Part shown: piece after piece, positions 54,438-57,048 of the stretch
Layout of the letters: each line of letters begins with the position of its first letter
Position numbering within the stretch: position 1 is the first letter of the stretch
From: Agarivorans sp. Alg241-V36
GTDB taxonomy: Bacteria; Pseudomonadota; Gammaproteobacteria; Enterobacterales; Celerinatantimonadaceae
DNA: 64,000 nucleotides
NCBI RefSeq assembly: GCF_900537085.1
Contig: NZ_UNRE01000001.1
Location: forward strand, 501,163 to 565,162
Direction of reading: 5' to 3'
Translations under genes and position numbers: made by a program
The notes under the pieces: generated by a model
Databases searched by the model: none
Told to the model about the DNA's origin: nothing
The model's input: only the letters and a program-made list of their open reading frames with translations

Positions 54438-56441
54438 TTAGTACAGCTCGCTCATCAAGCCTTGTAGTTGTTTAAAATCTAGCGATTTATCGGCATCTAC
54501 ACTGGCATCGCTAGGAGAGGGGTGAGCACAAAGTACAATACCGTCTGCGCCTAACAATTTAGCGGCCTTGGCCATTGGTGCGACAGCACTTAGTTCTTCC
54601 ACTGCTTCGCCAGGGTTTACTACGATTGGCAGGTGAGTGCGTTGGCGAAGTAAGCTAATTGCACCCAAATCTAAAGTGATTTTGTTTTTACCTTCCAGGG
54701 TTCTTACACCAGCTTCACACAAAATAACCTGTTGATTACCTTGAGCTAGTATGTAATCCGCAGCGTGTAACCACTCATCGATAGACGCCATGTTATTGCG
54801 CTCTAACAGGATAGGGCGAGTAGACTTGCCCAACTCTTTTAACAGATTAAAGTTTTTCATATGGCGCGAGCGAACATGCAGTATGTCTGCTTTTGCAGCT
54901 AGAGTGACAACCTGATCCACCGAGCTTACTTCTGTCATGGTTGGCAGTTTGTACTTTTTGCCAGCAGCATTTAAGTAATTTAAGCCCTCTTCACCCAAGC
55001 CTTGGAAACTGTATGGCGAGCTGCGGGGTTTAAAACAGCCAGCTGCTAATACTGCAGCGCCGCTTTCTTTGGCTGCGCCAGCACAAGCTATAACCTGTTG
55101 TTCAGATTCAACCGCACTAGGACCTGCAAAGGTAATGAAGCCGCCGTCACCAATTTTTACATCGCCAACACGAACTACCGTGGCGGTAGCTTTGTGTGAG
55201 CGGCTAGACAAGGCGCCATCTTCTTGCACAGTGCTAATTAAACTCGGTGCTCCAGCTTTGTTTACATCTTTATTGGCTAGTGCTTCTAGTGGGATTAGCG
55301 TTGGGTCAACATTCTCACTTGGGTAGCATCCAAGCACTTTAATGTAACGAGTAAGGCGAGTTAATTCTGCCAGTGCTGATTGCATTTGGCTGGACTTAAC
55401 ATTGGCCGAAACATCAACATAAAACATCTCTTCCCAAGGGTTGCCTTGCACTGGACGAGACTCGAGTTTGCTCATGTTAATCTCGTGCTCGCGCAAAACC
55501 AACAGCGCTTCTACCAACGAACCTGCTTGCTGTGCTGTTGACATAATAAAAGTCGTTCTCGCTGGCACTTGCTCAGCAACTTCCACCGGCTTGCGAGAAA
55601 CAACAATGAAGCGAGTGTAGTTTTGTTGCTGGTTAGCGATATCGGTTTTTAAGGCTTGCAAGCCATACATTTCGCCGCCCACTTTGCTGCCAATAGCGCC
55701 AACCGTTAAATCATCACCTCCAGCAACCACTTCCATGGCCTTGGATGAGCTATCTACAAAATCGACTCGAGTATTGGCTAAGGTACGTAAATATAGGCTG
55801 CACTGGGCATAAGGCTGCGGGTGTGCGTATAAAGTGGTGATTTGCTCCAGCTTGGCCTTGGGGTGAGCCAGAATACAATGATCAATAGGTATAGATAATT
55901 CACCTACAATCGACAAACTTGTGTGTTGCAAAACATCGTATACTTCGTTGATGCTGCCAGAGCTCGTGTTCTCAATGGGCAGCATGCCGTAGTCAGCTTG
56001 GCCGGATTCCACTGTATCTACAATGTCTTGGAAAGCGCTGCATCCAAACTCAACAATTTGCTTTTTATAGCGTGAGAAGTATTGGTGGGTGGCAATATTG
56101 CTGTAAGAGCCCTTGTTACCTAAAAACGCCACTCGCACTGCTTGAGCATGAATATCTGGGTTAGTAATGCCTTGCAAAAATGCCTGTTGCGATAGCACCG
56201 AATCTTCAATAATTGTGTGATACAGCTGAGTGACATAGTGTGCGTCTAGGCCTAGTTCTCTGCCTTTATTAATTAGCTTAACCAGTAATAACTGTTCACG
56301 CTCTTGGTCGCGAATGGCTTTGGGGTTTTCTATTTTACTTTTTGCTACTTCAACACTGAGTTGGCGACGCTCAGTTAGTAGTGTTAATAATGATTGGTCG
56401 AGCGCTGTTATTTTTGTTCGGATCTGCTCTAAATCTGCCAT
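54438..56441 (-). CDS. pheA: Chorismate mutase/prephenate dehydratase fused to a degenerate DAHP-synthase domain
   Basis: A 667-residue multidomain PheA. Residues 1-95 are an AroQ chorismate mutase, keeping the active-site Arg, Lys, Asp-x-x-Arg-Glu and Ser/Gln positions. Residues 103-285 are the prephenate dehydratase with T-R-F at 276-278. Residues 295-375 are the ACT domain, with E-S-R-P and G-C-Y-P-S-E-N, that binds phenylalanine. These match E. coli PheA, which ends here. Residues 425-667 form an added type I-beta DAHP-synthase-like domain. It keeps G-P-x-A-V-E-S and F-K-P-R-S-S-P-Y-S-F-Q-G-L-G but has lost most catalytic residues (listed separately). The first two steps from chorismate toward phenylalanine are intact; the tail is probably regulatory. 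It is behind a pheL attenuator. Confidence 0.95.
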   Translation of the reverse strand: MADLEQIRTKITALDQSLLTLLTERRQLSVEVAKSKIENPKAIRDQEREQLLLVKLINKGRELGLDAHYVTQLYHTIIEDSVLSQQAFLQGITNPDIHAQAVRVAFLGNKGSYSNIATHQYFSRYKKQIVEFGCSAFQDIVDTVESGQADYGMLPIENTSSGSINEVYDVLQHTSLSIVGELSIPIDHCILAHPKAKLEQITTLYAHPQPYAQCSLYLRTLANTRVDFVDSSSKAMEVVAGGDDLTVGAIGSKVGGEMYGLQALKTDIANQQQNYTRFIVVSRKPVEVAEQVPARTTFIMSTAQQAGSLVEALLVLREHEINMSKLESRPVQGNPWEEMFYVDVSANVKSSQMQSALAELTRLTRYIKVLGCYPSENVDPTLIPLEALANKDVNKAGAPSLISTVQEDGALSSRSHKATATVVRVGDVKIGDGGFITFAGPSAVESEQQVIACAGAAKESGAAVLAAGCFKPRSSPYSFQGLGEEGLNYLNAAGKKYKLPTMTEVSSVDQVVTLAAKADILHVRSRHMKNFNLLKELGKSTRPILLERNNMASIDEWLHAADYILAQGNQQVILCEAGVRTLEGKNKITLDLGAISLLRQRTHLPIVVNPGEAVEELSAVAPMAKAAKLLGADGIVLCAHPSPSDASVDADKSLDFKQLQGLMSELY
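54441..55169 (-). other. Pseudo-DAHP-synthase domain of PheA
   Basis: Residues 425-667 of the fused PheA, compared from memory with type I-beta DAHP synthases such as B. subtilis AroA(G). Metal ligands: Cys is Ser442 (G-P-S), His is Glu612 (N-P-G-E for x-x-x-H), Glu is Cys638 (L-C-A-H-P for x-E-V-H-P); only Asp649 is kept. Phosphoenolpyruvate contacts: Arg of L-R-G-G is Ala466, Lys of L-L-K-R-G is Glu547, Arg of C-E-R-G is Ala577. Lys471, Arg473, Arg526 and Arg580 remain. The scaffold (about 240 residues, with no gaps in these motifs) is preserved, so it should fold but not catalyse. Confidence concerns both fold and loss of catalysis. Confidence 0.85.
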
Positions 56442-56461
56442 CTGTTGTATTCCCTGTTAAC

Positions 56462-56488
56462 AAAAAAGCCTCCTAAGAAGGAGGCTTT
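56462..56488 (-). terminator. pheA attenuator terminator
   Basis: In minus-strand sense, AAAGCCTCC (56480-56488) and GGAGGCTTT (56465-56473) form a 9-bp stem with a six-base loop, followed by T-rich sequence, 21 bases before the pheA start. A GGGAGGC segment just after the pheL stop can pair with GCCTCC of the first arm as antiterminator. Confidence 0.9.
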
Positions 56489-56534
56489 ATGGATTCTGTG
56501 TGTTTTCGTTTTTACACCAATTCCGTCCGCCTCC

Positions 56535-56591
56535 CTAAAAGGGTGGAGTAAAAAAGAAACCAAACAAAAATCGAGTGTTGAATATTTTCAT
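56535..56591 (-). CDS. pheL: PheL leader peptide of the phenylalanine attenuator
   Basis: An 18-residue reading frame on the minus strand, MKIFNTRFLFGFFFTPPF, with seven phenylalanines, three of them consecutive. It lies 94 bases before pheA and is followed by mutually exclusive stems and a terminator. It has the same place and logic as E. coli pheL. When charged tRNA-Phe is scarce the ribosome stalls on the Phe codons, the antiterminator forms and pheA is transcribed. No clear ribosome site precedes the ATG. The raiA-pheL-pheA order is that of E. coli. Confidence 0.9.
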   Translation of the reverse strand: MKIFNTRFLFGFFFTPPF

Positions 56592-56673: not shown

Positions 56674-57048
56674 TTATGCGGCTTGTTCATCCTCGGAGCT
56701 AGGCTCGCCGTCGTCAATATCAGTGGGCGAACGTAAGAAATCTTTTCCAGAGCGGCTAGCGCGGTGCGCATTTGGCTTATCTTGGAAGCGGTGTAGCTGG
56801 CGTTCTAGTTTCTGCCCTAAATTATTAATGGCAACGCTCAGGTCTTGATGTTCATCGCTGGCAAACAGTTGTCCGTTTGGCAGATTGATCTTCGCTTCTA
56901 CTTTTACCTTTTTATTGTCGGTGGTGATAATCACTTTTGGTGATATGAGCGGAATTTGGTTTTTTTCCAGTTTCTCAAAGCGCGCGGCAATGTGCTCACG
57001 AATGGTTGGGGTAATAGAAATTGTCTTGCTAGTAATATCAATAATCAT
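56674..57048 (-). CDS. raiA: Ribosome-associated inhibitor RaiA (HPF family)
   Basis: A 124-residue stationary-phase factor that binds in the 30S decoding channel. The S30AE/sigma-54-modulation domain starts M-I-I-D-I-T-S-K-T-I-S-I-T-P-T-I-R-E-H and covers about residues 1-95, with conserved basic residues (K-K-V-K-V-E-A-K). The C-terminal tail of about 25 residues is acidic and resembles RaiA (YfiA) more than long HPF. A GGGAGG ribosome site lies five bases before the ATG. It directly precedes pheL-pheA, as in E. coli. Confidence 0.93.
   Translation of the reverse strand: MIIDITSKTISITPTIREHIAARFEKLEKNQIPLISPKVIITTDNKKVKVEAKINLPNGQLFASDEHQDLSVAINNLGQKLERQLHRFQDKPNAHRASRSGKDFLRSPTDIDDGEPSSEDEQAA

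Follow-up and report, generated by a model that had tools for sequence, protein, structure and literature searches.

An apparently dead DAHP synthase barrel on the PheA of Agarivorans, probably maintained as a pseudoenzyme domain

Why should PheA, an enzyme of the phenylalanine branch, carry at its C terminus what looks like a disabled copy of the shikimate pathway's entry enzyme? The question is raised by a gene on the minus strand of a 64,000-nucleotide stretch of Agarivorans sp. Alg241-V36 (contig NZ_UNRE01000001.1, positions 501,163 to 565,162; hereafter the window). An earlier note, made from the letters alone, had read the product as an intact chorismate mutase (CM), prephenate dehydratase (PDT) and ACT module followed by the fold of a type I-beta 3-deoxy-D-arabino-heptulosonate 7-phosphate (DAHP) synthase. 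The computational analyses reported here indicate that the barrel is probably a maintained pseudoenzyme domain descended from a trifunctional enzyme, and that it would most likely serve in the assembly or allostery of PheA. The gene and its domains are laid out as follows, in window coordinates.

54438..56441, minus strand: pheA-aroA(I-beta) fusion gene, 667 aa, ATG start, open reading frame (ORF) confirmed
56184..56423, minus strand: chorismate mutase domain (AroQ, type II), residues 7-86; CM_2 65.9 bits, cut-off 27
55590..56132, minus strand: prephenate dehydratase domain, residues 104-284; Pfam PDT 189 bits
55302..55571, minus strand: ACT domain, approximately residues 291-380; weak Pfam match plus PDT-ACT structure matches
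55185..55301, minus strand: linker, residues 381-419; partly disordered in the model, faster-evolving
54438..55184, minus strand: apparently dead type I-beta DAHP synthase (beta/alpha)8 barrel, residues 420-667 plus stop

The protein was assigned to PheA from its CM_2 and PDT matches, both above curated cut-offs and in the expected order, and it passed the PDT model NF008865 (224.1, cut-off 219); the full-length model NF007910 scored 549.5 bits, below its cut-off of 577. The Pfam match to ACT was weak (E 0.14), and the PDT-ACT structures 2qmx and 6vh5 matched the predicted model over the whole length. TRF occurs at 276-278 in the PDT domain, and GSLV at 307 and ESRP at 327 in the ACT domain; we take these to be, respectively, a PDT motif and the named motifs of the Phe site. 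The tail was matched by Pfam DAHP_synth_1 at residues 427-661 (174 bits, cut-off 25.5) and scored above the curated threshold of TIGR01361, which models DAHP synthases of the B. subtilis type (276.3 vs 267.75 bits), and the solved sequences closest to it are DAHP synthases of the P. furiosus and T. maritima type. Pfam and TIGR01361 thus confirmed the domain composition given in the earlier note. The fusion was recovered as one open frame in all 12 genomes of the family Celerinatantimonadaceae examined, so it is due neither to chance nor to assembly; the possibility raised in the note, that the tail would be absent from close relatives and decaying at random, did not hold.

Residue roles were taken from the available part of a published account of type I-beta enzymes (PMC6362186), which lists C36, H206, E232 and D243 as metal ligands, R60, K65, S119, R120, K141 and R171 as phosphoenolpyruvate (PEP) residues, and R67, T68 and D243 as erythrose 4-phosphate (E4P) residues. 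The informative positions of the window tail are these.

55116..55118, minus strand: Ser442, replacing a metal-ligand Cys (alignment and published residue roles)
55044..55046, minus strand: Ala466, replacing a PEP-binding Arg, R60 (alignment and published residue roles)
54801..54803, minus strand: Glu547, replacing a PEP-binding Lys, K141 (alignment)
54711..54713, minus strand: Ala577, replacing a PEP-binding Arg, R171 (alignment and published residue roles)
54615..54617, minus strand: Asn609, replacing the Asp of DPSH (alignment)
54606..54608, minus strand: Glu612, replacing a metal-ligand His (alignment and published residue roles)
54528..54530, minus strand: Cys638, replacing a metal-ligand Glu (Trp in Aliagarivorans; alignment and published residue roles)
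54495..54497, minus strand: Asp649, the sole metal ligand retained (alignment)

One of the four metal ligands of a type I-beta DAHP synthase is therefore kept, and the PEP ligands Arg60, Lys141 and Arg171 are lost, with Lys65 and Arg120 retained as K471 and R526. All ten standalone I-beta enzymes compared from the same order have the canonical residue at every scored position; these served as the reference, because conservation inside the 63 intact fused rows described below is true by selection. All six replacements named in the earlier note (Ser442, Glu612 and Cys638; Ala466, Glu547 and Ala577) fell at metal or PEP positions by alignment, at residues that the standalone enzymes keep, and its description of the domain as catalytically dead is supported by the loss of three metal and three PEP ligands: the window tail apparently lacks DAHP synthase catalysis, as judged from these residues. 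Nine of nine Agarivorans and Aliagarivorans sequences retain the residues of the E4P half (K471, R473, S474 and D649), so in these genera the destruction is limited to the metal and PEP half.

The fold is predicted to persist. An AlphaFold model of the full-length window PheA had a mean predicted local distance difference test score (pLDDT) of 86.5 and a predicted template modelling score (pTM) of 0.75; pLDDT was below 50 in the linker at residues 390-408 and near 90 over most of the barrel, with two blocks at 68-69. In Foldseek searches the barrel aligned with P. furiosus DAHP synthase (1zco/4c1l) at a template modelling score (TM) of 0.93 and a root-mean-square deviation (rmsd) of 1.6 over 256 columns. 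T. maritima DAHP synthase aligned over ~370 columns with an rmsd of 8 to 15, suggesting a match between its ferredoxin-like domain and the modelled window ACT domain in a different orientation. The FXD regulatory domain PF18152 lies ahead of the barrel in both standalone enzymes scanned (L222 and L223) and was not found in the three fusions scanned (the window protein, the intact fusion L058 of Stygiobacter electus, and L114), so the ACT domain of the PDT occupies the former place of the DAHP synthase regulatory domain. Even for the eroded tail of Shewanella canadensis a barrel was predicted with confidence (TM 0.82-0.83 for the best barrel matches), a result that homologues in the alignment behind that model may favour. 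In L222 and L223 a further ~270 residues with no family match precede the FXD domain and may be mere open frame.

Selection was expressed as the ratio of nonsynonymous to synonymous rates (omega), estimated with our own codon-likelihood fit on close pairs, with kappa fixed at 2.5 and ranges read from a coarse grid. In Agarivorans the tail gave an omega of 0.03 (range 0.02-0.03; three pairs, 27 of 744 residues differing), compared with 0.07 for the linker and 0.01 for the PDT domain, and twice the log-likelihood difference (2dlnL) against an omega of 1 was 498. The tails of Aliagarivorans (0.005, one pair) and the genus Celerinatantimonas (0.02, one pair) were likewise slow. Intact tails gave 0.03 in Ignavibacteria (three pairs), 0.01 in family f8 (one pair) and 0.10 in family f14 (one pair); purifying selection on the dead tail of Agarivorans matches in strength that on most live fused enzymes. 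Other damaged tails gave 0.10 (linker 0.20; six pairs) in Shewanella, 0.10 (linker 0.14; three pairs) in family f25 and 0.07 (linker 0.03; two pairs) in Ferrimonas, and a first likelihood run had put the Shewanella and f25 tails near the linker. Counting by the Nei-Gojobori method (NG86) was saturated: two usable Agarivorans tail pairs pointed in the same direction as the likelihood fit, and in f25 tail (0.45) and linker (0.46) were level. Constraint on the domain is tight in the window's family and gives way to erosion elsewhere. In the window's family the picture is that of a pseudoenzyme under selection, with catalytic residues lost, fold and frame kept and omega far below 1, and the window tail shows none of the marks of a pseudogene (omega near 1, stops, frameshifts); the suggestion in the earlier note that the domain is kept for a non-catalytic role gains support from the Agarivorans value.

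Within the barrel, constraint is uneven.

54612..54824, minus strand: slowest barrel part, residues 540-610 (beta5-beta7), including L592; range chosen after viewing conservation

Omega over this part was 0.01 in Agarivorans, 0.002 in Aliagarivorans, 0.005 in Celerinatantimonas, 0.04 in Shewanella, 0.03 in f25 and 0.05 in Ferrimonas, slower than the whole tail in all six damaged sets and also in two of the three live sets; the slowness is thus not specific to dead tails and marks a rigid region of the fold on which constraint persists once catalysis is gone. Nearly all invariant residues of a 58-row alignment of live and dead tails (G538, P543, R548, L558, G568, N569, Q571, L574, C575, E576, G578, D591, H603, L604, P605 and G634) lie in beta5-beta7. 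The nearly invariant L592 was aligned with I181 of P. furiosus DAHP synthase (residues counted by hand on the alignment), which according to the title of PDB entry 4c1l is the position of an interface mutant. Glu547 and Asn609 (Lys and Asp in live enzymes) were fixed in 12 of 12 rows of the family and in 26 of 26 Shewanella-genus rows, a count that leaves out L130, L148 and L170, three further rows of that genus; the lost metal-ligand positions and the two lost Arg positions vary across the same rows. Because the PheA tree separates the window's family from Shewanella and Ferrimonas balearica retains Lys at the Glu547 position, the two changes may have arisen in parallel or by transfer.

The distribution of the fusion was surveyed in named genomes among the best 80 of 530 relatives, a set biased to full-length matches. 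Seventy-seven of these loci had the fusion and three did not (Aeromonas simiae and two Moritella). Carriers belong mainly to Ignavibacteria/Melioribacteraceae, followed by Planctomycetota, Acidobacteria, Acidimicrobiia, 'Alpha proteobacterium Q-1', Ferrimonas, Paraferrimonas and Shewanella. Tails were scored at four metal and six other active-site columns, the Arg of IRT having been added to the published list. All ten residues were present in 63 of 112 distinct fused tails (63 again after realignment) and at least one was lost in 49; two of the latter kept all metal ligands and five of the six others, and 47 lacked at least one metal ligand, the alignment columns being uncertain in the most eroded tails. 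Intact fusions occur mostly in Ignavibacteria and relatives, also in Planctomycetota and Acidobacteria, and in five genomes of the window's own order (L023, L146, L131, L133 and L135). Judged by their residues, they probably represent a trifunctional CM-PDT-ACT-DAHP synthase enzyme, for which the window protein lacks the full catalytic set. Tails were damaged in 12 of 12 members of the window's family, in every Shewanella and Paraferrimonas tail scored and, beyond Proteobacteria, in Planctomycetota (L116, L128, L129) and Ignavibacteriaceae (L106); in these last four the catalytic loss was apparently independent.

Most of the checked genomes with an intact fusion also carry another DAHP synthase, so being the sole supply does not explain which copies live. 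Gene neighbours of three intact fusions included nothing pathway-related: L055 lies by an acyl-CoA dehydrogenase and MlaE, L121 by two proteins with no match and L065 by a TPP enzyme. By hand count, 122 of 123 Shewanella-genus genomes have an open pheA frame of at least 622 aa; in the exception, G516 (G516:C1:4927423-4929338), pheA is split into two frames near residue 256. The 14 genomes of the genus Ferrimonas, also counted by hand, divide into eight with long pheA frames and six with short ones (<470 aa). No description of an intact trifunctional PheA-DAHP synthase, or of a function for the dead tail, was recognised in the open-licence literature, subscription papers not being covered. In-frame N-terminal extensions of 278-380 residues were seen in L060, L118 and L120 and by eye resemble open frames outside genes.

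In a tree of the barrels, 32 fused tails, both live and damaged ones, were separated from 33 standalone I-beta enzymes by a single split with a Shimodaira-Hasegawa-like approximate likelihood ratio test (SH-aLRT) support of 99. One split was again obtained, with support of 99, when six Shewanella and f25 tails were added (38 vs 33), the program warning of long branches that meet within the fused side; L136 carries a damaged tail though labelled intact in the barrel tree, which leaves the split unaffected. Since the fused tails, that of the window included, lie on one side of a single split, one fusion event is indicated. A tree of the PheA parts (76 rows) placed window-type PheA in one group (support 100) that excludes the CM-PDT proteins from the class's other families, and within this group fused and unfused proteins were mixed, with 11 changes, at least five of them forced by strong branches. 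With E. coli K-12 included (56 rows) the group again had support of 100, its deepest branches were all fused, and 10 changes (at least four forced) were counted, E. coli being nested inside among unfused relatives. In approximately unbiased (AU) tests on 51 rows, a single fused clade was rejected at p 2e-7 and a single unfused clade at p 1e-7. Given a single fusion, this mixing means that the tail was lost repeatedly, and the short PheA of E. coli K-12 is, on this branching, probably a stripped descendant of a fused ancestor. The order at the root is unsure, since two unfused f3 rows were basal in the 76-row tree and internal in the 56-row tree. Transfer of the fusion between phyla is likely. 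The earlier note had presented a degenerate domain joined to PheA; the trees point instead to a single fusion, with a domain that was live and died afterwards.

Tail remnants beyond unfused pheA genes were sought by tblastn with eight tails against 34 loci, a weak test for those fetched by place, which extend only a few hundred bases past pheA; the one weak match (E 0.07, L029) was taken as chance and lies on the pheA strand, ~0.7 kb downstream, within another long ORF. In two genomes, pheA and a standalone I-beta gene stand ~1.4 kb apart on one strand (G529:C34:14042-17232, L175 and L191; G624:C1:2359992-2363227, L176 and L190), possibly the arrangement that preceded fusion.

The earlier note had proposed a look for a separate DAHP synthase in the same genome, and two were found: a type I-alpha gene of the aroFGH type (TIGR00034, 506 bits) followed by the CM-prephenate dehydrogenase gene tyrA, and a type II gene (G000:C7:150651, L232). 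Two further PF00793 matches are 3-deoxy-D-manno-octulosonate 8-phosphate (KDO8P) synthases, so that one genome holds two different enzymes of this kind (G000:C1:643691, L005; G000:C1:835158, L006). Type II DAHP synthase was present in all four family genomes tested and in G030; the sole Shewanella-genus genome tested, G016, had no type II enzyme and three strong I-alpha-like matches.

The history that we favour would run as follows. A single event joining pheA and a type I-beta DAHP synthase gene would have produced a trifunctional CM-PDT-ACT-DAHP synthase ancestor in which, with the ACT domain of the PDT at the regulatory-domain place before the barrel, one Phe-binding domain could control both the entry and the branch enzyme. 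In the lineage of the window's family the DAHP synthase reaction may have become dispensable beside the type I-alpha and type II enzymes, after which the metal site and PEP ligands would have been lost and the barrel retained as a folded pseudoenzyme domain. It would now most likely act as an assembly and allosteric module of PheA, with the beta5-beta7 half, which carries the interface-aligned residue, the most constrained. Several points weigh against this history. The trees come from fast searches on rows chosen by hand, and the omegas of each set rest on one to six pairs. The tail is dispensable elsewhere (the pheA frame is short in six of the 14 Ferrimonas-genus genomes, and Aeromonas simiae and E. 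coli have no tail), and in f25 and Shewanella the whole tail evolves nearly at the linker rate, closer to slow erosion. Residues 540-610 were picked post hoc and may mark only structural rigidity, and in Agarivorans, Aliagarivorans and Ferrimonas the range of their omega overlaps that of the entire tail; the interface argument hangs on a single position, taken from the title of a PDB entry. The constraint would fit a passenger domain that must fold as well.

That last point is the core of the main rival, to which we give perhaps half the weight of an even chance: the barrel would have no job of its own, PheA would since the fusion have become reliant on it to fold or stay soluble, making its removal difficult, and only its fold would be kept. 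The scaffold is indeed kept while pocket positions drift (Ser or Gly at 442, Ala or Gln at 466, Cys or Trp at 638), residues 540-610 are slow in live enzymes also, and the tail has been lost in some lineages and is slowly eroding in Shewanella and f25. Set against this, the Agarivorans tail is constrained to a degree also seen in live fused enzymes; Glu547 and Asn609 show no variation in either of two families (12 of 12 and 26 of 26) despite the eroded tail of Shewanella; and many lineages retain PheA without the tail, so dependence is not general. In a more doubtful alternative, the dead pocket, with its E4P half kept and the PEP Lys changed to Glu, would still bind a metabolite (E4P, another phosphate or an amine) and signal to PheA. 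It draws on the E4P-half residues kept in all nine Agarivorans and Aliagarivorans sequences and on the fixed E547 and N609, with roles as given in the available part of PMC6362186; yet within the same family genus g2 (L016) has lost both K471 and R473 and the genus Celerinatantimonas has lost R473, other pocket residues vary, and the ligand binding is putative. A bolder version, in which the pocket, with its fixed pair of Lys-to-Glu and Asp-to-Asn changes, would pass the level of shikimate input (for example E4P) to the Phe branch through the ACT domain, E. coli PheA being the stripped descendant of a three-in-one enzyme, is a long shot.

Two further explanations are very improbable. A fusion of AroQ-PheA to aroA(I-beta) in S. 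oneidensis was noted by Song et al. (2005) as a 'bizarre' pseudogene of unknown origin, as far as the available part of that article goes (PMC1173090). As a correction to the earlier note, which allowed that such a fusion might exist in relatives, the fusion had been in print, as a pseudogene, since 2005. Under that label the tail would be decaying DNA read through by chance, which would agree with its loss or erosion in several lineages; the Agarivorans omega of 0.03 and the 2dlnL of 498, the open frames of at least 622 aa in 122 of 123 Shewanella-genus genomes and the confident barrel predicted for S. canadensis speak against it so strongly that we give it hardly any credence, and the selection data show that the label does not fit in the window's family. 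Nor is there much to commend a tail that is still an enzyme, its altered site making DAHP without metal or running a different aldol-type reaction: the barrel, the KPRS motif, R526 and D649 are retained, but the PEP Lys is Glu in 12 of 12 family members and the metal set varies even inside the family, with Cys638 replaced by Trp in Aliagarivorans.

Relative to known systems, the maintained pseudoenzyme domain proposed here has partial counterparts. The S. oneidensis fusion has the same domain order as the window PheA in the part of PMC1173090 available, and in the tail tree four tails from other members of the genus Shewanella group with the fused ones (S. oneidensis itself being outside the set); in contrast, the Agarivorans copy is less eroded and strongly constrained, and it is now placed in a group of one fusion origin with intact versions in other phyla. 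DAHP synthases of the T. maritima type (1rzm, 1vr6) share the barrel fold, the motifs and an ACT-like domain before the barrel; in the window protein the active site is dead, the preceding ACT belongs to the PDT and PF18152 is not matched. The CM-DAHP synthases of B. subtilis, L. monocytogenes and Geobacillus (3nvt, 5j6f) likewise join CM and a type I-beta DAHP synthase on one chain, and in the bifunctional enzymes of B. subtilis and Listeria the CM-like domain regulates the DAHP synthase, according to the available part of PMC5526877, so such domains can regulate each other; there, however, no PDT or ACT lies between and the DAHP synthase is the active, regulated partner. The E. coli K-12 P-protein (CM-PDT-ACT, 386 aa) has no tail and is nested among fused and unfused proteins in the tree.

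Apart from its tail, the gene resembles that of E. coli. The features upstream of it are listed below.

56459..56587, minus strand: Phe_leader attenuator (RF01859), complete, upstream of pheA; 72.3 bits, gathering 55
56535..56591, minus strand: leader peptide ORF MKIFNTRFLFGFFFTPPF, Phe-rich, read from the sequence
56674-57048, minus strand: RaiA-like gene upstream of pheA; 50% identity to E. coli K-12 RaiA over 103 residues

The order raiA-pheL-pheA is that of E. coli K-12, and over residues 7-381 the window PheA shares 56% identity with E. coli K-12 PheA (378 residues). The attenuator, the gene order and this identity together indicate an ordinary regulated pheA that carries a tail. The tyrA and aroF-like genes are not beside it and lie elsewhere in the genome (L004).

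What is new is the finding of intact fusions in several phyla, with one fusion origin, repeated loss of catalysis or of the tail, and a constrained tail in Agarivorans. The 'bizarre pseudogene' of one Shewanella genome thereby becomes a traceable history of a fusion between the entry enzyme and the Phe branch. Live, half-dead, dead-but-constrained and deleted versions occur within one order, which makes it testable when and why a dead domain is kept. In Ignavibacteria and relatives a trifunctional enzyme is predicted, whose single ACT domain may, by binding Phe, govern the pathway at both ends.

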